IMG/VR virus record: IMGVR_UViG_3300047562_004041
Location: 1-53,324 of that record
DNA from: a virus
Strand: one strand, 5' to 3'
DNA length: 53,324 nt
The notes below the pieces were generated by a model. The model was not told the origin of the DNA, did not search any database, and was given only the letters and a program-made list of their open reading frames with translations. Position 1 is the stretch's first letter. The number at the start of each line of letters is the position of its first letter. The position numbers and the translations under genes were made by a program. Shown piece after piece: positions 2,370 to 17,321 of this stretch.

Positions 2370-5300
2370 TTACTTACCTAATGCAATGATTAAAGGTGTT
2401 ATAGTATTTAACAAACTTTGATCGAATGATCTTCCTGTGATGGTTCCAGTCAATTGATTTACTGTTATATCATCTCCAATTTTAAAGTTACCCGCTTGAT
2501 TTGTACTCGTATAAATTACTTGTCCGCCTTCTATTTTTACCACTTCATTGTCTGGATTTGTAATACCACCCAAGGCAGGTTTTGCGGTATCAATATTTGT
2601 TCCGGCTCCAACCCACTCAAATGAGATTGTTGTTGCAATTTGCAAGCTCAATCTACTAAAGTATACTGTAGTTCCGGATCCAACTGTATTATTTAGAGTT
2701 TGAGTTAAAACGATAGTTGAGACGCCATTTACTGGCTCAGTTGCAGTTGCGATGTTATAATATGTTGGATATAATGTTGCTCTAGCTGTAGCCTGTATGC
2801 CAATTCCCCCATTAGGAGGAGCAATTTCCACAGTAGGAATTCCTTTATATTGACTTCCAGTACTGATCACATCAATAGAAGTGACTCTACCAAATTGATC
2901 TACATTTGCGGATGCTTCTGCGCGAATTCCGCTTGGTCCCTCTGGGAATCCAATTGTTACTCTAGGTGGTAATCCAGGAAGATATCCAAGTCCTGGTTCA
3001 TCGACTACTATAGTTTGAACTGTATTGTATAGCTCGCCGAAGTACAATGCCTGTCCATCATAAGGACGATTGGTCCCAACACCGGAAACAACTATAGTGT
3101 CAGTTTCAATTGGGGCAGTGTCAACTATTTTTCCAGTATAGCGATAAATTGATTTTGATGTTTTATCTCCAACACCATTTGAATATAATCCATAATTACC
3201 AAATGAAGCATTTGAGTTTGTAAGATCGCATTGTCCACCAGATCCTGTATATATCGCAATATCATCACAAATAGTAAAGATAGATACTAACTGAGCATAA
3301 GCACCATTAGTAATAGATACGCCGATTCCATTTTGATTATATTGAGTATATGAGTCAACACTCATAGTTCCAGTTACACCAATGTCAGTTTGATCTCCTG
3401 GCTCAGCGGCAAATCCATCAACTTTCATTCCAATACTATCACCAATAAAATTAGTGCAGTTTCTTACATATGGACCCTGGGTGATTGGTCCAACTCCTCT
3501 GGAAAATTCTGGAATTGCTACGCCACCGGAAACATAAGTATGTGGGATCGTTGATGGTCCAACATTAATAGTAAATGTGTCATTAGCAGTATTTGTTCTA
3601 TTAATTGCAATTCCAGTTGTAGGAATGTATGTATGTGGTATTGTAGATTCTCCTACATTAACAGTAAATGTAGATCCAACAGAAGTTAATACTCTAAATT
3701 TATATCCATTATTTCCTGTTGGATAAGTTAAGTTTGGTGGACTATCAGGACAGCTGAATAATAAATCTCTTAATTCCACCAAATCATTATATTCTAAGTT
3801 TATTCCAGGAGCGGTAATGGTAGCTATTCCACTTATATTATCATATTCTGCATCTGTTACATTAAATGGCTTATCAGTTACAATATCAATAACTCTAAAC
3901 TCAAATCCATTATTTCCTGTTGGGTAAATTGTAGTTGTCCCACTTCCACTTGGACAAGAAAATTCTAAATCTCTTATTTTAACAAGATCTCCAGTTTCTA
4001 TCGATAGACCTTCGGCTGTGATTGTAGTAATTCCAGTGGCATTATCATATGTTGCGGTTGTTATTGCTACAACTCTATCTAGAGCTATTCCACCACCAGC
4101 ATAAGTATGTGGTAATGTTGATGCACCAACATAGACTTCAAATGATTGATCATCGTTTATCTTATCAACAAAGAAATCATATCCATATCTACCAGATGGG
4201 AACATTTGAGTTGATATGCCACCACCAGAATTACAACTAAATGATAAATCTCTCAATTCTATAGATTCGCCCTTTATAGCCTTTAGTCCAGGAGAAATTA
4301 TAGTTAATTTACCAGATACTTCATCGTAAACTGCAGAAGTAATTCCAATTGTACTTGTAAATCCAATACCAGAATTTCCAGGGTATGTAGTTCTGATTCC
4401 AACTGTTGTAAATGCCTCGGATCCAAATCCAACAATGCTAGTAACAACACCAACGCAAGATCTCATTGCAGAAACAACATTAGCACAACCATTTATACCA
4501 TTATTGAATCCAGTCAATGGATCAACTTGCATTCCCAAATCTTTTATTTGTGTAATTTCATCTTGGAAACTAGTGTATTTTTGTATTGTTCCACCAGAAT
4601 CATAAGTATGTGGAAGAGTAGACTGTCCAACAATAACTTCAAAGTGGTCGTCATCTACGACTTTTAGTACATTAAATATGTAACCTAGAGAACCTGATGG
4701 ATAAGTCACAATACCTGGTCCAGATGGGCAAGTAAATTCTAATCCAACAATCTTTACTGCATCATCTAATTCCAATCCATGGTTAATTGCAGTAATCGAA
4801 GTAACTCCAGTTATATTGTCATATACTGCATTTGTAATTTCCGTGCCAAGACCAACTGGATATCCACCCCAAGTTACATTGTTTATCACTGCACGAGCGA
4901 CATTGAAAGAGTAATCTACAGTTGCAATAGTTTGTTCAACTTCTTCTGGATTTTTTAGTATTTGTGGAATTAAATTCCAATCAGAATCGTAATATGCCTT
5001 TCCTGCATCAACTGAACGAGAGTTTCCTCCTCTTGTAATATCATGTATAGCACACTTCCAAATGTCTTTGATATCGTCTGCGCAATCATTGCTTTCTAAT
5101 CTTACTCCAAATTTAATTGGTGGGAGTACACTAGTGCTTCCGGCTCCAATTGCTGATGTGACAATCCCTACAAGTTGAGAAATAGTAGTTCCAACTGCAA
5201 CGCAGCCACCAGGAACAGTTATTATAGAAGGATTGAAAGTTTGTGAGACCTCACTTTGATATGATGTAGGAGGTGCAACATTATCTATAACTGATTTTGC

Positions 5301-6341
5301 TATACCTGCAGCATAATCTAGTGTTGCTATTGTCGCAGCTGAAACTCCTACTCCTGTAATATGAACTAATGCGCCAGAATCACTAAAGTATGACAATGCC
5401 GCTCCAACAGATTTACGATTACTATTCGCTTTTAAGTCATAAGAAACAGATCGGAAAATATCTCTAATGTCATCTGCACAATCTTCGGTTGTTCCTGGTC
5501 CAGGAACTGTAAAGTTGAGTCCAGATGGGGAGGTTAAAAATCCAACTGCTTCTGCTGCAATATAATCAATATTTGAATCGATCAATCTTGCTGCATCTTG
5601 TTCTCTATGATTTCCTGCAAACCCACTAAAACCACTTGTCAAAAATCCAACAGATTCTCTTGCAATGTAATCAAGATTAATTCTGACCATTCTTGCGGCA
5701 TCAAAGAATCTATCTACCGCAACACCTTGAAGTGGTTGAAGTGCAACGACAGCAGCACCATCGGTCATTTTTGGGCCAATGAAACTCATGTCAGTAATAT
5801 GACAACCATTATTTACATGGAATAGGTCTAGGTATGGAAATTTTGGTGTGACAACGCAGTTTCTAAGTTCAGTTCCTTCTACAGAAACAGTTTTTTTCAA
5901 TACTATTGGATTTTCTTCAACATAAACTCCTGGGTATACTTTAATAGTATCTCCAAATACAGCTACATTGGCTGCTCCTTTAATAGTTCTTTTAGCGTGA
6001 CTTTCAGTCAACCCAGTATTATTGTCATCTCCACTTTGAGTAACAAAAATTGTTTTGCCTAGTGGCTTATATGCCTGTACTTTTACTTCACCTTTATTTC
6101 CAGGAGTTTGAGATGGAAATAAATCAATTCCAATACCAGGAACTAAGTTAGTTACAATACCAACTAAATTTACGCCATCTCCATAATAATCCAATGCAGT
6201 TACAGAACTTCCAACACTTAAGTTGGTACTGATTGCAACTTTATTTGCAAAAATGTTCAAGTCATTTTGACTTGTAATGTTCGGAACCTCTTGTCCGCCA
6301 ATCAGATTTATTCTTCTTGCACCAAAGCTTTTATCCGACAT
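2370..6341 (-). CDS. Large beta-helix/repeat structural protein, probable tail fibre (1323 aa)
   Basis: Residues ~90-190 look like the start of a right-handed beta-helix (pectin-lyase-like): TIFVTQSGDDNNTG is followed by DTIKVYPGVYVEENPI. Residues ~200-500 carry two copies each of two helical motifs (DAARxxxxNxDYIAxExVGFLT, and CADDIxDI with ATxDYxxxxAxxVIxNV). Residues ~505-950 contain about four tandem ~85-90-residue beta domains (YDNxTGxxTITA...SxLPHTY). The C-terminus ends with a metal-free beta-rich tail (TGRSFDQSLL). Similar long proteins in marine T4-like phages are virion components. Function as a fibre or baseplate-peripheral adhesin is inferred from architecture and position between the subtilase and the collagen-like fibre. 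Confidence 0.8.
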   Translation of the reverse strand: MSDKSFGARRINLIGGQEVPNITSQNDLNIFANKVAISTNLSVGSSVTALDYYGDGVNLVGIVTNLVPGIGIDLFPSQTPGNKGEVKVQAYKPLGKTIFVTQSGDDNNTGLTESHAKRTIKGAANVAVFGDTIKVYPGVYVEENPIVLKKTVSVEGTELRNCVVTPKFPYLDLFHVNNGCHITDMSFIGPKMTDGAAVVALQPLQGVAVDRFFDAARMVRINLDYIARESVGFLTSGFSGFAGNHREQDAARLIDSNIDYIAAEAVGFLTSPSGLNFTVPGPGTTEDCADDIRDIFRSVSYDLKANSNRKSVGAALSYFSDSGALVHITGVGVSAATIATLDYAAGIAKSVIDNVAPPTSYQSEVSQTFNPSIITVPGGCVAVGTTISQLVGIVTSAIGAGSTSVLPPIKFGVRLESNDCADDIKDIWKCAIHDITRGGNSRSVDAGKAYYDSDWNLIPQILKNPEEVEQTIATVDYSFNVARAVINNVTWGGYPVGLGTEITNAVYDNITGVTSITAINHGLELDDAVKIVGLEFTCPSGPGIVTYPSGSLGYIFNVLKVVDDDHFEVIVGQSTLPHTYDSGGTIQKYTSFQDEITQIKDLGMQVDPLTGFNNGINGCANVVSAMRSCVGVVTSIVGFGSEAFTTVGIRTTYPGNSGIGFTSTIGITSAVYDEVSGKLTIISPGLKAIKGESIELRDLSFSCNSGGGISTQMFPSGRYGYDFFVDKINDDQSFEVYVGASTLPHTYAGGGIALDRVVAITTATYDNATGITTITAEGLSIETGDLVKIRDLEFSCPSGSGTTTIYPTGNNGFEFRVIDIVTDKPFNVTDAEYDNISGIATITAPGINLEYNDLVELRDLLFSCPDSPPNLTYPTGNNGYKFRVLTSVGSTFTVNVGESTIPHTYIPTTGIAINRTNTANDTFTINVGPSTIPHTYVSGGVAIPEFSRGVGPITQGPYVRNCTNFIGDSIGMKVDGFAAEPGDQTDIGVTGTMSVDSYTQYNQNGIGVSITNGAYAQLVSIFTICDDIAIYTGSGGQCDLTNSNASFGNYGLYSNGVGDKTSKSIYRYTGKIVDTAPIETDTIVVSGVGTNRPYDGQALYFGELYNTVQTIVVDEPGLGYLPGLPPRVTIGFPEGPSGIRAEASANVDQFGRVTSIDVISTGSQYKGIPTVEIAPPNGGIGIQATARATLYPTYYNIATATEPVNGVSTIVLTQTLNNTVGSGTTVYFSRLSLQIATTISFEWVGAGTNIDTAKPALGGITNPDNEVVKIEGGQVIYTSTNQAGNFKIGDDITVNQLTGTITGRSFDQSLLNTITPLIIALGK
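3510..4850 (-). repeat. Tandem protein-domain repeats (~85-90 residues each, about four copies)
   Basis: Within the 1323-aa protein, a domain with YDxxTGxxTI near its start, LExDDxVxIxxLxFxCPSG in the middle and STLPHTY or STIPHTY at its end recurs about four times, with one extra half-copy. The copies have diverged at DNA level, so this is an old domain duplication, unlike the nearly identical collagen repeats. Limits are approximate. Confidence 0.7.
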
Positions 6342-6358: not shown

Positions 6359-8347
6359 TTATTCTATTGAGATTCCGAATAATGAAAGTCCATCACCCTC
6401 TATAGTTAATTTAGTATATATGTCATCTACAGCTGGACCTGGTGGACCAGGAGGAGGTGGAGGTGGAGTTGGACCAGGAGGAGGTGGAGGTGGAACAAAA
6501 AAAGTCGAATATGGGTTGTAAATTATTCTTTTTTCAGCTCCTCTCATATTATATCTACCGGACCAATATGTTAAAGTATTTGGATCTGGATATTGGTCTA
6601 AATATTCATTGGTTAAAGTCACAGAACCTGATGTAAATAGCCAATCTTTAACTTGACTGGATGTCGAAGTTGGATTTAATTGTAAGTGTATTGCAACAAT
6701 TCCAGCCACAACTGGTGCAGCTGCACTTGTCCCGTTAAATAAACAATCACGAAATAATCCGTTGTCAGCTCTAACATATGGATCTAATCCTATACATCCT
6801 GCAGCTAAAGTTTCATCTGCAGGTGCCCAAACATCTACTCCTGGTCCGTTGTTAGAATAAAAAGCTTTTCTTTCTGCTCCATCAGATAGGCTAAAATCAT
6901 CCATCGCACCAACACATATTACAGGATGAAAATCTGCCACGGAATCATATCCCATTCCAGATGGTGTCAACCAATTTCTATGTCCACTAGGAATTGTTCC
7001 AGCTGGAAATTCTGGATTCGGGTCAAATGGAAATATAATATCAGTAAAATAATCTAACAAATGTGGATCATCAAGACCAATTCCCAATCTTTGATTGCTA
7101 TTTCCAGCTGATGCAACAAAAATTGCACCAGAATCCATGAGCTCACTTCCAGCCAAATCTGTACTAGCACTACGAGAACTACTGACATAGTTCCTATATT
7201 GTTCAGGTCTTGGAGTTAAAGATTCTTTAGCATATAATACAGGTTTAGTTGGATCTGCCGCTGGAGAGTTACCAATAAATGTTCCTACTTGCCCTTCAAA
7301 GCTATAAGAAACTACTGTAGTACCATCAAATCCACCAAGATATACCCAACTTCCACTAATAATAGTTGGATTTTTTATTCCAGTTGCTGGATTTATTGGT
7401 TTATATAGATGAAATACTTTCATCAAATCAAAAGTAAGTTCTATAGGAACACTAAATTTTCTATTTCTTGATACACAATAAATGCTCCAAATATTGGCAT
7501 TAAATGCAGTACCAAAATTTTTACCCGCAGAAAGAGATGCACATGAAGTCCCATGTGAATCTGTCAATCCATTTGAACCATCCAAATTTGTACCCAAAGT
7601 ATCATTTTCATTGTATGCAGCTGGTATTGTAAAGGTACCAATCGAAGAAAACTGTGGGGATCTAAGAGATGAGTTTTGCCACCAATTTTTTGCAGCAAGT
7701 TCCGTAATTCCTATTCTTCCATCTGGTTTTATGGTTGTCAATCCATTTATATTAAAGTATACTGGATCAATATAATATGGTCCATCTAAAATTACATCTC
7801 TAACTCTAGATTTTCCAGTGGAATCTAAAAATTCTGGATGGTATTGTAAAACACCAGAATCTTGTATTATAATGTCAGTGTTTGATCCATCAATTGTATA
7901 ATCTACATTTCCTAAAACAGGAGGTATGAATTCTCCAGTTTGTGTCCAAAAATCAGAACTTTTTTGCAGTACCGTTCTTTTGATTGCCCAATTAGTTCTG
8001 TTAATTTCTTCTGGTGTTGGGGTTGGAGAAATAGATGTATTTAAATCTCTGTATATTTTTACATCAGTTGGCCATCTTTTTGTACATTGAACTGGAGTGG
8101 GATACACTTCTGGGTGATGTATTGGGGACAATTCTATCCATTTTACATTAGGATGATTTAATAATTCTTGAACTTCCTCCTCGGACAATAAGAATGTACC
8201 TCTAGTTTGACTATGTTCTTTTTCATCAGAACATTCGACACATCTATTTGGAACATGTTCACACTCCGATTCATGGCATAATTGATTGTGAATCTCTTGC
8301 CAATATTCAGGTTGAGTTACACTTAAAGTATAATGCTTGTATTCCAT
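6359..8347 (-). CDS. Subtilisin-like (S8) serine protease with proline-rich C-terminal linker
   Basis: This 662-aa protein carries the full S8 triad in order: Asp near 164 (IIQDSG), His near 265 (DSHGTSCASLSAG), oxyanion Asn near 416 (SAGNSN) and Ser near 541 (NGTSAAAPVVAG). Residues ~1-85 resemble an I9-type propeptide (FLLSEEEVQELL, then NVKWIELSP). There is no Sec signal. Residues ~618-638 are two polyproline blocks, and a ~24-residue acidic tail ends GLSLFGISIE. The gene lies 17 bases upstream of the 1323-aa fibre-like gene and 1 base downstream of a fibre-like gene, so it belongs to the late structural operon. A role in processing fibres, or as a virion-borne enzyme attacking host surface protein, is inferred; all catalytic residues are present. 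Confidence 0.9.
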   Translation of the reverse strand: MEYKHYTLSVTQPEYWQEIHNQLCHESECEHVPNRCVECSDEKEHSQTRGTFLLSEEEVQELLNHPNVKWIELSPIHHPEVYPTPVQCTKRWPTDVKIYRDLNTSISPTPTPEEINRTNWAIKRTVLQKSSDFWTQTGEFIPPVLGNVDYTIDGSNTDIIIQDSGVLQYHPEFLDSTGKSRVRDVILDGPYYIDPVYFNINGLTTIKPDGRIGITELAAKNWWQNSSLRSPQFSSIGTFTIPAAYNENDTLGTNLDGSNGLTDSHGTSCASLSAGKNFGTAFNANIWSIYCVSRNRKFSVPIELTFDLMKVFHLYKPINPATGIKNPTIISGSWVYLGGFDGTTVVSYSFEGQVGTFIGNSPAADPTKPVLYAKESLTPRPEQYRNYVSSSRSASTDLAGSELMDSGAIFVASAGNSNQRLGIGLDDPHLLDYFTDIIFPFDPNPEFPAGTIPSGHRNWLTPSGMGYDSVADFHPVICVGAMDDFSLSDGAERKAFYSNNGPGVDVWAPADETLAAGCIGLDPYVRADNGLFRDCLFNGTSAAAPVVAGIVAIHLQLNPTSTSSQVKDWLFTSGSVTLTNEYLDQYPDPNTLTYWSGRYNMRGAEKRIIYNPYSTFFVPPPPPPGPTPPPPPPGPPGPAVDDIYTKLTIEGDGLSLFGISIE

Positions 8348-8348
8348 A

Positions 8349-9539
8349 TTACATTAAGGTACTTCTTGTAAACATGTAAGTTACTATTCCAACAGTTCCA
8401 GTTACAGGAGTAGCTAAAACACTACATGTGTTTCCAGATATTGTGGCGCCAATTGAAACTACTATACCAGGATTGTACATAATAGCATACTCCTCTGAGA
8501 ATGCTGTTGTTCCGTTTTGCATTAACAAAAGTTTTTGAGATTGTATGTTTTCTCCATTCTGTATATAAAATGTATATTCTGCTACTTTGAAATTTGATGT
8601 CAATAAATTATATGAGTCAATTGTTGCTGCAACGCCAACAGTCGCAGAAAATGTTGATGATGAATTTAAAAAGTTATAATTTTCTATTTGAAAATTAGTA
8701 ATAGATGGTGGACCACCAATTCTAAACGCAGTTGCTTCTATAGTTGAAGCAAAAACATTTTCTAGATTTGTGTCTCCGGGAGTTACAGTTAAAGATGTTG
8801 CTTCTGCTGAGGCAAGAGTAGACTCTGTAGTTACATCTAAAGCATCTACAGTCGCAGTTCCAGTAATTGAAGCATCTCCACTCACATCAAGTTCAACATT
8901 TGGAGTTACTCCAATTCCAAGTTTATTTGAAAATGGATTATACACTAACCCATTTGAATCGACTTTAAGAGTATTTTCTACTCCATCTTCTGGGTTTCCA
9001 GCAAATACTACATTATAATTTACATCATCATCATTTTGTTCAGTATTTATAGCTATTATATCTTCTATTTGCTTCCATTCTGGTCCCTCAAATTCCCCTC
9101 TAGATACCAATACATTATTTTCATTTCCACTAGTTACTCTTCTGTTAATACTAATTGTAAGAGTGGTTGAACCAATTCCATTTTTATGAGCTACATTTAA
9201 ATTTACAATAGAGGCTCCAATTGATACTACCCTAGTCGATGGTTCAAAGTATACATCATTTGATTCAGTTAAAGAATCATTTATTCTTATTAATGAAGTG
9301 TCAATTCCACTAATTACTCCAGGTGAAGTAGCTGATGCAATTCCAGTGGTAACTTTTACTAATGAACTAGTTACACCAACTAAAAAGAGATCGTCTAGTG
9401 CTAAATCACCTCTTACATCAAAATTATATTCCGGTACAGTAGATCCTATGCCAACCTTCTTTGTTGCCGAATCTGCATAGATTAAATCTAATCCTACCTC
9501 AAGACCATTTCTTATGACGAAGTTTTTGGTTAATGCCAT
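8349..9539 (-). CDS. Tail-fibre-like structural protein (396 aa)
   Basis: Begins MALTKNFVIRNGLEVG, an N-terminus typical of fibre proteins in marine T4-like phages, followed by DSATKKVGIGST and many short GIGST/VSIGA-type beta repeats. No enzymatic motif is visible. A ribosome site (AAAGGAG, 5 bases upstream) supports the ATG at 9539. It sits between the glycine-rich adhesin (39-base gap) and the subtilase. It probably forms a trimeric fibre segment or attachment piece; the exact place in the particle is unknown. Confidence 0.78.
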   Translation of the reverse strand: MALTKNFVIRNGLEVGLDLIYADSATKKVGIGSTVPEYNFDVRGDLALDDLFLVGVTSSLVKVTTGIASATSPGVISGIDTSLIRINDSLTESNDVYFEPSTRVVSIGASIVNLNVAHKNGIGSTTLTISINRRVTSGNENNVLVSRGEFEGPEWKQIEDIIAINTEQNDDDVNYNVVFAGNPEDGVENTLKVDSNGLVYNPFSNKLGIGVTPNVELDVSGDASITGTATVDALDVTTESTLASAEATSLTVTPGDTNLENVFASTIEATAFRIGGPPSITNFQIENYNFLNSSSTFSATVGVAATIDSYNLLTSNFKVAEYTFYIQNGENIQSQKLLLMQNGTTAFSEEYAIMYNPGIVVSIGATISGNTCSVLATPVTGTVGIVTYMFTRSTLM

Positions 9540-9578: not shown

Positions 9579-11915
9579 TTAGTTGAATGTCAATGTTGCC
9601 GCTCCAGTGAAAACATGATATGCATAATTGATTGTTGGAGTTGTTCCGCCATTATTTGAAGTTCCATATGTTATGGTATTCGTGCCAGTATTTGTACTAG
9701 TAGCAGCTCTGGCACCGTTAGGCGCTGGATATCTCACTACAACAATTCCTTGTCCACCACTAGCTCCAAACCTGTTGCTGCCAGGAGTTGTTCCAACTAG
9801 TGCTCTTGATACTCCACCGCCACCACCACCACCAGTAAATGCTGCTCCCCCAGTAGCATTTACTAAGTTTGTTGCTCCACTTCCACCACCATTTTGACCT
9901 GGAGCTCCTGAAGCTCCTTGGTTGGCTGCTCCTCCACCACCTCCACCAGCAAATCCACTTGTTAAACTAAGAGATGCTAATGCTGTGCCAAAAAATTGTA
10001 ATCCTCCTCTTCCAGGACCTCCAGTGCCACCGGCTGTTGCCCCATTTACTAAACTTCCTCCAGCTCCAGAATCGCCACCACCGCCACCGCCAAGTCCAAA
10101 TCCAGCTGGGTTGTGTGCTCCATTTCCACCCCTTAAACTAATGCAGCCACCGACACCGGAATTTAAATTATTTGGTCCGCCACCACCACCACCACCACCA
10201 GATTGATTATCAGTGACGCAGTTTCCACCCGCCGCAGCAACCGGTCCGATAAATAATAAACTTCCAGTTCCACCACCTCCTCCTCCAACTGCTGTAAATG
10301 GTAAAGCTACTCCACTTACTGTAACAGTTGTAGTTTGACCATTTCCTCCTCTTTGTGATGGAGAACTAGAGCCAGCACCACCACCTCCAACAGTAGCACT
10401 AATAGTTCTATTACTGCCAGGTCCTGTGAGTGTAAATGCAACTGCAGAACCTGCGCCACCACCTCCACCACCTCCTCCAGCACCACCTGGAGCTGTACCG
10501 GCATCAGAAGAAGCATAGCCTCCACCACCACCCCCACCAACATAAAATACTTCTACTGTGAGTGGATATGTGACAGTTGGTGTAGGTGGTGGTGGTACAA
10601 CTGGTGGTGGTACAACTGGTGGTGGTACAACTGGTGGTGGTACAACTGGAGGTGGTGCAGGATCTGCCTGTGTAGTGATTGACCAAACTTGCTGACTCGT
10701 AGTTCCAACTGTAGCTGTAGTAGTGACTGCTGTACTATAAGTACTAGAAGATGTTAGTCTGACTCTAATAGCATCGCCATTGATTATCTGTATTGGTGGG
10801 TCGTCATATCCTTTTATTAAAGTTCCACCAGATGGTCTTCTAACTTCATAAGAAGCCCCAGATGTAAATGTAATATCAGTGGCTAAGCCAACATTTAGAC
10901 CATTAATTACAAAGGCTTCAGCTCGATTAGCTGGATAAGCACCTGTTGTATTATATAATGTGCTTATGGCTCTGTTAGTTAACGGAGTAAAGTTACTGAT
11001 TCCAGTGGTCTCAAATACTCCAGTCACAACATTTTGCTTGAAAAATGTGAAAGTGGCAGACAGATCTAATGGTTGGGTGGTTACATTCCAAGTTGTGGAA
11101 TATGTTCCAACACCAAAATTAATTGGTTTAGTTTGACCATAATCAGAAGAAATGGTATCTAAGTTAATAATATCTCCATTTCCAATCAAAGCATTCGTTA
11201 CAGACGGAGTAATTCCGTCGATAATTATACCACCATTCCCATCTACAATTGATGCAGAAAATTTAATGTTTGGCTCAAGTCCTGTGATGGTATATGATAA
11301 TGTTGTTACGCCTACGCCAGCAAGTACATCAAGAGAACTTGGTATTATTATGGGATCGGGTACACTATCGACATCTCTAACCTGTATAATCCAGTCTTGT
11401 ACACTTGTACCAATTGAAACTACAGAAGTATATGTTGACCCAAAAACATCAGGAATTATGTCTGTAGGTAAAACACTTTGACTTAATCTTGGATTGAGTT
11501 GATCGAATGTTATTAGATTTGAATCGAATGAAGCTGGAGGGAAAATTGGAGAAGGTATAGTTCTAGATAGCCTTATAGATTGATTGTTTCTAATAAAAGT
11601 AGAATCAGTAGTAAATCTAAGACTGGGATCTAAATCTTGTGAGAAATTTGCTTGTAAAGGAAAATCATTATCAAATGCAAGAGAATTGACATTTTGGTTG
11701 TCAAATACGGAAGCAAAAAGAGAATAGGAAGCACCAGGTTCTATTGTGACTCTGAGTTGACTTTTAATCCCTGTAATTTTTACATAGTCACTATAATAGG
11801 TCAATCCAGGATCAACATCAAATAAATCAATAAAATCAAATGGATCTGGAGAACTAACTAAATTTGAACGATATGCATATTCAGATGCATTTCCTATTGC
11901 TCCTATAATTGGCAT
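9579..11915 (-). CDS. Glycine-rich adhesin with polyproline hinge (778 aa)
   Basis: Three parts can be read. Residues 1-~420 are beta-rich, with Ig-like or FN3-like sandwich character (repeated WxxxT and ITxTSGxxYEV segments). Residues ~422-445 are a PPPVV-type polyproline hinge coded by a 15-bp DNA repeat. Residues ~455-760 contain long glycine runs (blocks of 5-9 Gly separated by hydrophobic segments), the pattern of gp38-type phage adhesins that fold as polyglycine-II helices. The C-terminus ends YHVFTGAATLTFN, almost the same as the 267-aa protein at 19000-19803. This suggests a receptor-binding tip at the host surface. It starts 3 bases after the stop of the 1800-aa gene. Confidence 0.82.
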   Translation of the reverse strand: MPIIGAIGNASEYAYRSNLVSSPDPFDFIDLFDVDPGLTYYSDYVKITGIKSQLRVTIEPGASYSLFASVFDNQNVNSLAFDNDFPLQANFSQDLDPSLRFTTDSTFIRNNQSIRLSRTIPSPIFPPASFDSNLITFDQLNPRLSQSVLPTDIIPDVFGSTYTSVVSIGTSVQDWIIQVRDVDSVPDPIIIPSSLDVLAGVGVTTLSYTITGLEPNIKFSASIVDGNGGIIIDGITPSVTNALIGNGDIINLDTISSDYGQTKPINFGVGTYSTTWNVTTQPLDLSATFTFFKQNVVTGVFETTGISNFTPLTNRAISTLYNTTGAYPANRAEAFVINGLNVGLATDITFTSGASYEVRRPSGGTLIKGYDDPPIQIINGDAIRVRLTSSSTYSTAVTTTATVGTTSQQVWSITTQADPAPPPVVPPPVVPPPVVPPPVVPPPPTPTVTYPLTVEVFYVGGGGGGGYASSDAGTAPGGAGGGGGGGGAGSAVAFTLTGPGSNRTISATVGGGGAGSSSPSQRGGNGQTTTVTVSGVALPFTAVGGGGGGTGSLLFIGPVAAAGGNCVTDNQSGGGGGGGGPNNLNSGVGGCISLRGGNGAHNPAGFGLGGGGGGDSGAGGSLVNGATAGGTGGPGRGGLQFFGTALASLSLTSGFAGGGGGGAANQGASGAPGQNGGGSGATNLVNATGGAAFTGGGGGGGVSRALVGTTPGSNRFGASGGQGIVVVRYPAPNGARAATSTNTGTNTITYGTSNNGGTTPTINYAYHVFTGAATLTFN
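10588..10647 (-). repeat. Four exact 15-bp tandem repeats encoding the polyproline hinge
   Basis: The 15-mer GGTGGTGGTACAACT (plus-strand reading) occurs four times in a row at 10588, 10603, 10618 and 10633. On the coding strand each unit gives five residues (P-P-P/V-V). Exact identity makes copy-number change by slippage likely, which would alter hinge length without changing frame. Confidence 0.95.
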
Positions 11916-11918
11916 ATT

Positions 11919-14900
11919 TTATCTACCGTAAGTTGATTGTGATGCTAATATTGTATATTGATCGTTTATAGTCCCAGTTATAGATTTTCTGAGTATAACA
12001 TATGTATACACATCAATTCCATTCGGATATCCAGAAGTGTATTGTGCACCACCATAATAATAAACATTAGTGAATGGATTCCCATCAATAGTTATATTAT
12101 TATTATATCTAGCAGTTGGTCCAATAGTTGCTAAGAATGCCACTGTAATTGACTGTCCAACCTCCAGCACATCACCCAATAAAGAAGTCGGACTTCCAGT
12201 AAAGTTTATAGTCCAATCACTTGAAGATGGTCGAGTATAATAGTAAACATTATTGTCACCAAGGTAAATGTCAACTGGCTCTAATGTTGGTGCGAGAATT
12301 GGCCAATCTATATCAACTATTGTGGCTTCTTCTATAATCTCAGTTACATTTAATAGTCCTTTTACTTTCAATTTCGACTTAGAATCAGCAGTAGTACCAA
12401 TTCCAACATTTGATCCAGTATAAATTCCAACTCCAGATTGAACAACCCATGTTGATTCCAATCCACTTAGTGATGATCCATCACCATAGAATGTTCCGCT
12501 CCATATTCCAACATATCTCCCATTTGAATCTTTAACTGGAGCAAATTCTCTCCATTGATTTTGGTTGGTAAACATCCAACCTGCAGATCCACCTTCATTT
12601 GGATTTGAATTAAATTCAATATCTCCTGCGTTTCCAATCAAAGTTGGAGTGGAAATCCCAACAGTAATTCTTCTAGATACATTTGCAGAACCCTGCAAGA
12701 ATAGAGAATTGACTTCAACTCCCTTATCGGAGGTTGAAGTTATTTTGTTGCTAAACACAACTGGACCATCAAACTTAGAAATAATATCTTTCCCAACTCC
12801 ACCTTCAATTTTAATAGACTTTCTTATGCTAATTTCTGATGTTGAAATGAGATCAACTTTATCTGATGTTAAGTCTTCGCCAGTTACAGTAGGAATTGGC
12901 GCATCATATATTTCTTCTTGTCCAGTTGCTGAACTTATTTTTTTATTTCCAATATAAAAATCACCATCATTATTCATTCCAGTAAATACTGTAATTCCAC
13001 CATCAGATTTAAATGATTGTGAGAGTAGCTCTTCTTGTGGTGAAATTAATCTATCTTGTGAGTCAGGGAGTGATGTAGAATAATTTCCTGGTCCAAATCC
13101 AACATATTCAAATGTATGTCCAGATGCTCTTAGAATTGAGTGCCTTCTAAACTCAATTGGAATTGGTGATACTTTTCTAACTACCGCACCAGACAAATGA
13201 GTCTCAATTACACTACCCAGTACACCCCTAATTACAGGAATAATATTAGAATTTACAGTAGAAGATATCTTAACAATCTCATTATCAATCAATAAGAAAT
13301 CACCAATCTTAAGTCCAGTATTTACTGCATTATTGATTGTAATTGTTGTGTTCGATAGAAGGACATTCGCTCCAAGAGTTCTTGTATTTCCATCATAAAT
13401 TGGGATCAATCTTGAACTAACTTTTTCATTTTCAGCAGAGATTGAACCAAAATTAGATGAATATGTATGAGGATATGAGTATATTGAAGATAATGTTGTA
13501 TTAGTTGTAGTGGTAAATCCAATATTCAACTCAAAAGAGGTCAAACTATTAATTTTTGATACGATAAAATCTTGATTATATTGTGATAATGTACTACTAT
13601 AAAGTCTAATTTTTGAATTTACTTTAAGACCATGTGCAGTTGTAGTGGTAACAATTCCAGTTGTAGCCTCTACAGGATGTAACAACGATGATACTAACAG
13701 CGATTTTGGTCCAAGTTCAGAAATTAAATTCGATGTAGAGGTTAATGTTGAAATTCCATTTGTAACTACATTTGAAATGTTGTTGGAAGAAATTACATCT
13801 ATAGATCTACTTGTTGTGATTCCACTAATTCTATAGAGATTATTATATCCTAGTATGGAATCTTCTTTGATTCCATCTACAAAGATCGTATCATCAATCG
13901 AATCATTGATATTATCGACTCTAACAACACCAATCACATGTGAGCCTGTAGTTGCAACCCCAACAACAGATAGTGTATTTCCTATTCCATAAGCACTACC
14001 TGGATTGATAACTTTTACATTGGAAATTGCGCCAGAGTTTACTCTAATGACTGCACTTGCTCCTTCACCAACAGTTGATCCAGCAAATCCAACCAAACGA
14101 GCGTTGTAAAGATCTCCAGTAAACCCAGCAATTGGACCATATGCACTTCCAGCATCAACAATACTGAGTCTAGTAATTCCATTTAGTCCATGATCAACAT
14201 CAGTATATATTGTATGTGATGTTCCAGATAATGATCTAATATTTGTTATATTGAATGTAGATTTGAAATCAGTTCTAAATTTCTCAAAGGTTTCTTTTGT
14301 AATGCTATTTTGTGTATCATCAATTACAACTTGTCCAATTGTATCTGATAGAGCATATGAAGTTGTAGACTTTGGATCAGATATTGGATAATCTCTATTT
14401 TCTTGTGGATATAAGTATTGAACTGGCTGAGTGAATTTTAGATCCGAAAATTCAACTACATTAGGGGAGTTGGAAGAATTCAAAACAATCAAATGATATA
14501 TTCCATCCTGTATATTTTGAATATAAGGTTGAATTTCTTGTGTTCTATAAATTATATAAGTTTGATTATATCTTTTACGACTAAAATATGGTAAGGAAGT
14601 GTCTCTAGAGGAAGTATTGTTTAAAAATGTTCCAGGAGATTTAGTAGTATCAAATGTAAATTCAATTGAACTTGGTACAGAAGTTACTGTATAGAGTCCA
14701 TTATATCCAGAATCGTATTCTGCATCAACATTATCGGATGAAGATACTTGTTGAATTTTTACTTGCGATCCAATCGAAAGATTGTGAGGAACTTCTGATG
14801 TTATTGTTACAACTCCACCAGAGAATGTTGCATTTGAAATGATCCTTATATTTTTTATGTTGTCTACTCTAGTCAACACATTGGTGTCAAAATCAAATTG

Positions 14901-17321
14901 AGATGACAATTCAAAATTAGACCCTATATTACTACTAGATTCTTGGATAACATATCCATCTAATGGTGGTCTTGCTTTTGTTTGTGAATCTTTAGGGATA
15001 ACATATCTAAATTTAAATATCTTATCATCCAAACTTCTTGTATCAACAGTTCTTTTAATGTAAGTTCTTGGAGTCACATCAAATGAATATGTTGATAGAG
15101 CGTTCCAAATTGGATTTGCACTCTGTACTTTCAAGTACCATTGTAGATTGGTGGGATCCCATTGCACTGGATGTCCAGGATCTCCTGAATTTTTATCAGA
15201 AACTCTACTAACAATTTTTAAATTCCCAGTTTCGATACTATAAATTGTTATGGCAGAATTTACATTAGCTCCATTTATTGCATCATTAAAAGTCTTAGCT
15301 AATCTAATCTGATTTTCCCCAAGAGAAGTAAATGTCGAATTCGTAATTACATAGTATAACTTATTATTTTCAATTCCGCTTGGTAGAGATCCATCTGAGC
15401 TTAGTATTCTTACAGATTCTCCGTTGATGAAATTGTGATTTTCAGTTAAAGTTATAGTGTTAGTATTAATTTCATTACTAATTCCATCTATTTTCTTTTT
15501 AACTTTAGCCGTTTTTTCATAGCTTGTTTGTGTGGTGCCTTGCATGACAATTGTAGCACCATACTCTTGGCCAGATAGCAGTACATTTAAGGTATCATTA
15601 GGCTTTGCTCCAATTCTATACCCATCGACAACAATTTGTGGTCTGACAGATTCATTTAATTGATTATAAAGATATAATCTATCTGAACTACCAACCAATA
15701 TGGTCTTGGCCTTATCAATAGAATTAAACTCGATAAAGGGAGATATTATTGTTTCTTGTGATCCTATTCTTTGTGGTGGTATAATATGTGTAATGTATCC
15801 AACATCATCTCGTGCAAATGAATCTTCTCTATATCCTCTAGCAACTAGTGACTTTGCACCAAAGTTGGAGTTCGAGTTGGTGATGGATTGATCTCCACCT
15901 GATTCAGCAACAAAATGCTCAGCATAACCAATAGCAAAAATTGATACAGCCTGAATAATTGCATCATTACTCGCTTTTACATGGTAATTTAAATAATTGC
16001 TTTTATATCTTGATCTAGAATTTGAATATAAGTTTGCAGTTGATGAATTAGTTCTATCTTCATATAATCCAGTCACTGGATTATAAATCACAAAAGCATT
16101 ACTATCTTTTTGTAGGGAAATTCCCGTAAACTGTGCAACTACAATACTCTTAAATCCATCTGCTTTCCTTCCATCCGCATGTAATCCAGACATTCCATAT
16201 ACCGAACGCAATGAAATATTAAAGATATATGGAGAAGCAGATGTCACTGTATCAACTACAACACTCAATGTTCCACCAGATCCACCATTTGTGATTACTG
16301 GTGCAACAGAAACATTGTATTGAATTTTATTCAAATCGACAACGGCAGAAACAACATATTGTCCATTGTAACCTTCTGTCAATACTCCGTCTATACGAAT
16401 GGGAGTATCTACCTGTAAATCGGGAGCATCTTCATCTAGTGTTACTGTAACTTTAGTTCCACTTGAAGTGATGCTAGTAATTCCAATTTGATTTCCTTTG
16501 GACCCTACAATTCGATATTCATCAATTTTTGGTTGAATGTCAATTGTATTTGGGTAAGTGGGTTCAATTCTTCTTCCACTTGAGTCACCATATGCGATAC
16601 TAATTTTTTCATAGTACATTTCAAGATCAGTTCTATCGAATGTACCAATATCTAAATCAACTTTATTCACACCATCTGCATATTCAAATGCAGTCAATTT
16701 GTGGTGAGAAAAATTAGGAACTGCTTTTGCAATCGAATAGTTATAGAAGCATTGTCCATTAGGATCAGCATCAAAAACTGTAAATTGCCACAGATAACAT
16801 GCACCAGTGACTCTAAATATCGCAGATCTATCAATTAAATCATTAGTTGGATCTGGAACATATTTTGGACGAATCTTTGTCTTACGAAGATCCATTCCAA
16901 CTATAGAGGTTCCTCTGGGAATTATGACCCCACCATTGACTGAATTTAGTTTATATAACTCATTATTGTCAGTAGTAATATCAAAATTACTTTGAGCTGA
17001 GAACTGAGTAAAATCTGTTGTAGTAGATCCGTTTCTAAAAAGAAAATTAGAACCATTGGGAATTAATCCAGGACGATTGTCAATTATGTGGTCTCCTGGA
17101 TATAGTAAAATACTAGTATTTCCAAATTTATCGTTATCTTGTCCAGGTAAATATGAAAATCTAGCTGCCTCTATCAAAGCTCTTTGAAGAGTTTTAAATG
17201 GTCGAGCAAGAGAAGTGCCAGTGTTCTCAATTGCATCTGTAGCATCTAGTGCATTAGGATCAACATATATTATATTGCCTCTAATACTACGAATAAAATT
17301 CTCTAGGCGACTTAATCCCAT
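11919..17321 (-). CDS. Giant structural protein, probable beta-helical fibre or whisker (1800 aa)
   Basis: Begins MGLSRLENFIRSIRGNIIYV, followed by a pectin-lyase-like passage (RPFKTLQRALIEAARFSY, then SILLYPGDHIIDNRPG) well known from very large virion proteins of T4-like cyanophages. The middle (~250-1400) consists of diverged beta repeats with ITSxGTxVTVTL-like strands and isolated GSAYG motifs. Residues ~1560-1700 resemble fibre shafts (VGISTPTLIGNAGDIEFNSNPNEGG; GSNVGIGTTAD). The last ~120 residues form a compact beta domain. A T4-type late promoter (17350-17357) and the ribosome site AAGGAAC precede the ATG. It is the first gene of the late block reading down to the left edge. A fibre or baseplate-appended role is inferred; no enzyme motif is seen. 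Confidence 0.82.
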   Translation of the reverse strand: MGLSRLENFIRSIRGNIIYVDPNALDATDAIENTGTSLARPFKTLQRALIEAARFSYLPGQDNDKFGNTSILLYPGDHIIDNRPGLIPNGSNFLFRNGSTTTDFTQFSAQSNFDITTDNNELYKLNSVNGGVIIPRGTSIVGMDLRKTKIRPKYVPDPTNDLIDRSAIFRVTGACYLWQFTVFDADPNGQCFYNYSIAKAVPNFSHHKLTAFEYADGVNKVDLDIGTFDRTDLEMYYEKISIAYGDSSGRRIEPTYPNTIDIQPKIDEYRIVGSKGNQIGITSITSSGTKVTVTLDEDAPDLQVDTPIRIDGVLTEGYNGQYVVSAVVDLNKIQYNVSVAPVITNGGSGGTLSVVVDTVTSASPYIFNISLRSVYGMSGLHADGRKADGFKSIVVAQFTGISLQKDSNAFVIYNPVTGLYEDRTNSSTANLYSNSRSRYKSNYLNYHVKASNDAIIQAVSIFAIGYAEHFVAESGGDQSITNSNSNFGAKSLVARGYREDSFARDDVGYITHIIPPQRIGSQETIISPFIEFNSIDKAKTILVGSSDRLYLYNQLNESVRPQIVVDGYRIGAKPNDTLNVLLSGQEYGATIVMQGTTQTSYEKTAKVKKKIDGISNEINTNTITLTENHNFINGESVRILSSDGSLPSGIENNKLYYVITNSTFTSLGENQIRLAKTFNDAINGANVNSAITIYSIETGNLKIVSRVSDKNSGDPGHPVQWDPTNLQWYLKVQSANPIWNALSTYSFDVTPRTYIKRTVDTRSLDDKIFKFRYVIPKDSQTKARPPLDGYVIQESSSNIGSNFELSSQFDFDTNVLTRVDNIKNIRIISNATFSGGVVTITSEVPHNLSIGSQVKIQQVSSSDNVDAEYDSGYNGLYTVTSVPSSIEFTFDTTKSPGTFLNNTSSRDTSLPYFSRKRYNQTYIIYRTQEIQPYIQNIQDGIYHLIVLNSSNSPNVVEFSDLKFTQPVQYLYPQENRDYPISDPKSTTSYALSDTIGQVVIDDTQNSITKETFEKFRTDFKSTFNITNIRSLSGTSHTIYTDVDHGLNGITRLSIVDAGSAYGPIAGFTGDLYNARLVGFAGSTVGEGASAVIRVNSGAISNVKVINPGSAYGIGNTLSVVGVATTGSHVIGVVRVDNINDSIDDTIFVDGIKEDSILGYNNLYRISGITTSRSIDVISSNNISNVVTNGISTLTSTSNLISELGPKSLLVSSLLHPVEATTGIVTTTTAHGLKVNSKIRLYSSTLSQYNQDFIVSKINSLTSFELNIGFTTTTNTTLSSIYSYPHTYSSNFGSISAENEKVSSRLIPIYDGNTRTLGANVLLSNTTITINNAVNTGLKIGDFLLIDNEIVKISSTVNSNIIPVIRGVLGSVIETHLSGAVVRKVSPIPIEFRRHSILRASGHTFEYVGFGPGNYSTSLPDSQDRLISPQEELLSQSFKSDGGITVFTGMNNDGDFYIGNKKISSATGQEEIYDAPIPTVTGEDLTSDKVDLISTSEISIRKSIKIEGGVGKDIISKFDGPVVFSNKITSTSDKGVEVNSLFLQGSANVSRRITVGISTPTLIGNAGDIEFNSNPNEGGSAGWMFTNQNQWREFAPVKDSNGRYVGIWSGTFYGDGSSLSGLESTWVVQSGVGIYTGSNVGIGTTADSKSKLKVKGLLNVTEIIEEATIVDIDWPILAPTLEPVDIYLGDNNVYYYTRPSSSDWTINFTGSPTSLLGDVLEVGQSITVAFLATIGPTARYNNNITIDGNPFTNVYYYGGAQYTSGYPNGIDVYTYVILRKSITGTINDQYTILASQSTYGR

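Follow-up and report, generated by a model that had tools for sequence, protein, structure and literature searches.

The window (the whole 53,324-nt stretch of DNA analyzed, source record IMGVR_UViG_3300047562_004041) encodes a subtilisin-like (S8) protease within a cluster of tail-fibre genes. On balance we favour the view that this protease is a zymogen carried on the virion at the tip of a fibre, where it would probably cut a host surface protein; a fibre-borne position is suggested by the coupling of its gene to a fibre gene, by gene fusions and by virion-protein flags in the phage S-SCSM1. The window derives from a T4-like phage of marine cyanobacteria: it carries T4-like tail, baseplate, PhoH and thymidylate-synthase genes, and its relatives are cyanophages. 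Among phage records, the fibre region had no near relative at the DNA level, and the rest of the window gave a single short match (74%) to phage-record DNA. Genes around the protease match tail-fibre families (PHROG profiles), with the following arrangement:

2370-6341, minus strand: downstream tail-fibre gene, 1323 aa (PHROG 3442/17885, tail fiber), 17 bases after the protease
6359-8347, minus strand: S8 protease gene, 662 aa, ATG start (Pfam, PHROG, AF2 model, Foldseek)
8349-9539, minus strand: upstream partner fibre gene, 396 aa, with its stop one base from the protease ATG
9579-11915, minus strand: fibre-cluster gene, 778 aa, glycine-rich (Pfam Gly_rich_2, PHROG 4924)
11919-17321, minus strand: tail-fibre gene, 1800 aa (PHROG 529, E 0)

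The original prediction placed a complete subtilisin-like protease among fibre genes, with giant neighbours of 1323 and 1800 aa. The ORF coordinates are exact, and both large neighbours are real and match tail-fibre families; the gene abutting the protease is the 396-aa one. The N-terminus of the 1323-aa fibre is common to downstream fibres in relatives. In the 778-aa protein, a proline-rich repeat (VPPP) precedes the glycine-rich domain.

The protease matches Pfam Peptidase_S8 (PF00082) at 1e-16 over residues 157-573, and the functionally unassigned family PHROG 9158 at 3.4e-72 over residues 4-608, which is most of the protein. Its AlphaFold2 model (pLDDT 88.6, pTM 0.81) recovers a subtilase fold resembling proteinase-K-like structures (Foldseek: 2b6n, E 1e-14, target TM 0.79). 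The S8 triad motifs D(S/T)G, HGT and GTSxAxP, together with the oxyanion Asn, are all present, as had been predicted:

6518-7927, minus strand: S8 catalytic domain, residues ~141-610 (PF00082 and predicted fold)
7859-7861, minus strand: codon of catalytic Asp163 (QDSG), invariant in 88/88
7553-7555, minus strand: codon of catalytic His265 (SHGTSC), invariant in 88/88
7100-7102, minus strand: codon of oxyanion-hole Asn416 (SAGNSN), invariant in 88/88
6725-6727, minus strand: codon of catalytic Ser541 (GTSAAAP), invariant in 87/87 readable sequences

These counts come from 88 distinct aligned homologues from phage records and IMG/VR, one contig being frameshifted at the Ser. With four broken or incomplete rows removed, the remaining 84 homologues (lowest pairwise identity, 20%) share 18 invariant columns out of 655, and D163, H265, N416 and S541 are all among them. 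Judged from the alignment, the invariance of these four residues is far beyond chance; with the proteinase-K-like model match, it provides strong evidence that catalysis is under selection. The protease reading frame is broken in contigs L014:7992-9683 and L088:5992-7695, reflecting either assembly error or a decayed gene.

Two segments precede the catalytic domain:

8123-8347, minus strand: predicted I9-like prodomain, residues 1-75 (predicted fold, weak profile match)
7928-8122, minus strand: conserved stretch joining the prodomain to the catalytic domain, residues 76-140 (alignment and model)

An I9-like propeptide had been proposed from the sequence, and the proposal holds for the predicted fold and not for the sequence match. 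Residues 1-73 are modelled in the order beta-alpha-beta-beta-alpha-beta, that of I9, with pLDDT mostly over 90; the Pfam I9 profile gave no match to the window even at E 10. When an N-terminal profile of 37 relatives was compared with the PDB (E up to 10), the sole hit was 8c4z_A, the propeptide chain of a related protease, at an E of 1.7 that is not significant alone. The prodomain is thus predicted to be I9-like on its modelled fold rather than on a sequence profile. Residues ~81-90 are flexible and form the least ordered part of the model ahead of the catalytic domain. Inspection by eye revealed no hydrophobic N-terminal signal in the protease, in agreement with the signal peptide having been called absent. 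In fold, catalytic residues and zymogen layout the enzyme is like the proteinase-K-like subtilases (aqualysin I, Serratia proteinase K-like 2b6n), but it differs from them as a phage gene product that has no signal peptide (by eye), is paired with a fibre and ends in a C-terminal tag. In the deposited S-T4 annotation (L002:13995-15911) the protease start is placed 150 bases late (14145), so the public protein is short by about 50 N-terminal residues, and an antisense ORF (14014-14130) is laid over the prodomain.

The protease gene is coupled to the fibre gene on one side. Of 87 loci, 13 are fusions; in 70 of the 74 that are unfused, the distance from the upstream stop codon to the start of the protease is between -4 and +6 bases. 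Contig ends or broken frames account for three of the four exceptions. On the other side, 9-46 bases usually intervene before the downstream fibre (median gap 17.5; all loci measured), and the contrast between this looser spacing and the tight upstream junction indicates that the coupling is one-sided. The upstream partner proteins vary from 254 to 1915 aa and have differing bodies. Cleavage of the giant 1323- or 1800-aa neighbours, one of two roles originally suggested, finds no support here: conservation singles out the small fibre encoded upstream (396 aa in the window) as the partner, and the 1323-aa fibre is uncoupled, 17 bases away. In seven loci (L010, L013, L033, L047, L050, L053 and L055), the product of the gene directly after the protease opens with a signal-peptide-like sequence (MKRLILAFSLFFATPVFAGEITHKI...), as in an exported phage protein, with its role unassigned.

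Most upstream partners share a C-terminal domain (CTD), which in the window is:

8352-8663, minus strand: partner CTD, residues ~293-396, predicted gp9-like (conserved C-terminus of abutting upstream genes; model)

The same ~100-aa CTD ends the upstream protein in 50/84 tree rows. It is always C-terminal in the loci analyzed and adjoins the protease in them; the exceptions to this adjacency are an extra copy in S-SCSM1 and two loci in which the protease frame is broken. Since these loci were fetched around the protease, whole phage records were searched with the CTD (n = 24), and the CTD was directly before the protease in 18 of the 24. The other six records are from S-TIM5 (twice), S-TIM61, S-TIM66 and S-SRM01 (twice), with no protease named nearby in the two phages that were inspected (S-TIM5 and S-SRM01). 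Two marine genome contigs found by the protease alone also carry the CTD. A second CTD-bearing protein, likewise flagged as a virion protein, is encoded right after the protease in S-SCSM1 (L005:14191-15864).

The best PDB match to the CTD model (pLDDT 90.7) in a Foldseek search is T4 gp9 (1qex, E 2.8e-5), the long-tail-fibre connector, followed by tailspikes and tail fibres. The likeness is one of predicted fold, covers part of gp9 at 12% identity, and differs in setting, as the CTD instead ends variable fibres. Part of the structure of Fri1 gp49 (6c72), a tailspike depolymerase and thus a virion-borne enzyme of the receptor apparatus, also matches the CTD fold; tailspike depolymerases, however, cut polysaccharide, whereas here a protease is encoded as a separate chain. 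A staphostatin-like inhibitor reading of the CTD was rejected, as its profile hits (E 0.0045 and 0.085) were weaker than a clearly unrelated hit and it was absent among the fold matches listed.

The protease itself ends in two short segments, the first of which is the polyproline linker noted in the original prediction:

6434-6493, minus strand: polyproline linker, residues ~619-638 (pLDDT below 50, predicted disordered)
6362-6409, minus strand: C-terminal tag, residues 647-662 (LTIEGDGLSLFGISIE), diverged from the family tag xSIxGVxISGISFxQS

A tag close to this family pattern occupies the extreme C-terminus of most unfused homologues. A scan of 1503 ORFs with the tag pattern matched 48 protease ORFs and no others; because the pattern was written after viewing the homologues, it serves as a description, and the divergent tag of the window itself escapes it. 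The spacer between catalytic domain and tag may be ~8 residues, polyproline (window, L057), (DP)n (L095) or a LamG domain (L072), so the polyproline linker is best regarded as a spacer rather than a defining part. The monomer model shows both tag and linker as disordered, as expected for a segment that binds in trans. Upstream fibres with other terminal domains (types B and C) are likewise followed by tagged proteases, suggesting that the tag may bind somewhere other than the CTD. A distant S-RSM4-like clade has neither the family tag nor the gp9-like CTD and has a different fibre end; this, together with the tagged proteases paired with fibre ends B and C, suggests that the docking site may differ among lineages. 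The CTD alone as tag ligand is not supported as a general rule, given that the tag pairs with other fibre ends too.

Fused proteases comprise 12 IMG/VR rows in one clade plus S-TIM54; all are without tag and upstream partner, and the tree requires two origins. Where scanned, they run on into tail-fibre modules. The S-TIM54 protein (L007:9995-16414; 2140 aa) combines an I9-like domain, an esterase (BD-FAE), an S8 domain and Ig domains, the esterase being inserted between the prodomain and the S8 domain and the Ig domains lying behind the latter. A LamG domain is present in the S-SCSM1 and L072 homologues.

These data bear on a morphogenetic role, in which the protease would trim the upstream fibre, its CTD or itself during assembly and then stay by association, much as in the tip processing of T2-type long tail fibres. 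Tight coupling to one fibre gene fits such a role, the conserved fibre domain could be the substrate, and a zymogen layout with an I9-like prodomain implies at least self-cleavage. Nevertheless, some phages keep the CTD while lacking the protease, fibre ends of several unrelated kinds are paired with the protease, and the lectin-like, Ig and esterase fusions are a better fit to an enzyme acting outside; we regard a morphogenetic protease as the main rival reading, though a less likely one.

Evidence for presence in virions comes from one phage and one study. The S-SCSM1 homologue, gp144, carries the annotation baseplate wedge subunit (virion protein); that of its partner, gp145, reads virion protein. 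We counted 47 virion-protein flags on the S-SCSM1 genome, and 45 virion proteins were reported from mass spectrometry (PMC9602691); since the flags cover enzymes that could be called virion proteins only on such data, they are taken to track the mass spectrometry, with a small mismatch (47 vs. 45). For S-CREM1, the text of the proteome paper makes no statement on detection of its peptidase. The authors of the S-SCSM1 study caution that proteins present in abundance may persist through CsCl purification (PMC9602691), and an intracellular protease, active in host takeover or lysis, could co-purify with particles in this way; no signal peptide was seen, which also suits an intracellular enzyme. 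Against this, the gene resides in fibre clusters beside a fibre gene and was fused to tail-fibre modules in two lineages, making an intracellular role improbable.

Enzyme folds sometimes serve as adhesins, but the idea of a subtilisin fold that has lost catalysis and serves for binding is very hard to reconcile with Asp, His, Asn and Ser that are invariant in 84-88 diverged sequences.

The virion-borne, fibre-tip protease that we favour would operate as follows. It would be an active S8 enzyme produced as a zymogen, with activity expected from its catalytic residues and an I9-like prodomain predicted from the fold, and would be co-produced, as the gene junction suggests, with the fibre encoded immediately upstream. 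In the virion it would then sit at the far tip of that fibre, with the C-terminal tag, on its variable linker, probably anchoring it to the gp9-like domain that ends the fibre. On the particle, it may act during adsorption by cutting a cyanobacterial surface protein, so that a receptor or protein layer is cleared or remodelled. In two lineages, docking would have been replaced by the direct fusion of protease and tail fibre. Of the two roles originally suggested, a virion-borne enzyme acting on host surface protein is thus favoured over fibre self-processing, based on the S-SCSM1 flags and the fusions with tail-fibre, LamG, Ig and esterase modules. More tentatively, the arrangement could be a modular two-part fibre, in which a protease head is clipped onto interchangeable fibres, the disordered tag sits in a gp9-like socket and the linker sets the reach of the enzyme. 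Such a fibre might, equally tentatively, represent the protein-cutting cyanophage counterpart of polysaccharide depolymerase spikes.

The gp37 long tail fibres of the T2/S16 type have a separately encoded tip protein, gp38, which is a binding protein. By gene order, the protease would be analogous, lying directly behind the fibre gene (70/74 unfused loci), but it is a protease where gp38 is a binding protein. PHROG 9158, or cyanophage T4-GC 292 (P-SSM2 gp297, S-SSM7), is the same family in the same place in fibre clusters, and the records consulted list it only as of unknown function or PF00082-containing, with partner, tag and location undescribed there. An S8 domain in cyanophages has been on record since at least 2010, both as T4-GC 292 (P-SSM2 record) and as the S8 peptidase T4-GC518, which was named in two Prochlorococcus phages with no function given in the available portion of the paper (Sullivan 2010, PMC3037559). 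Literature searches for a phage subtilisin, or a cyanophage serine protease in virions, returned nothing relevant, and no prior account of the fibre pairing, tag or fusions was found in the mostly non-subscription literature.

Little is known of the receptors of marine Synechococcus and Prochlorococcus, or of their barriers to entry. A virion protease that is conserved and has an identified fibre partner would offer a direct handle on them, as finding its target would reveal a cell-surface protein encountered by these abundant phages. If the fibre-borne reading is true, proteases would join the known kinds of fibre-borne enzymes.
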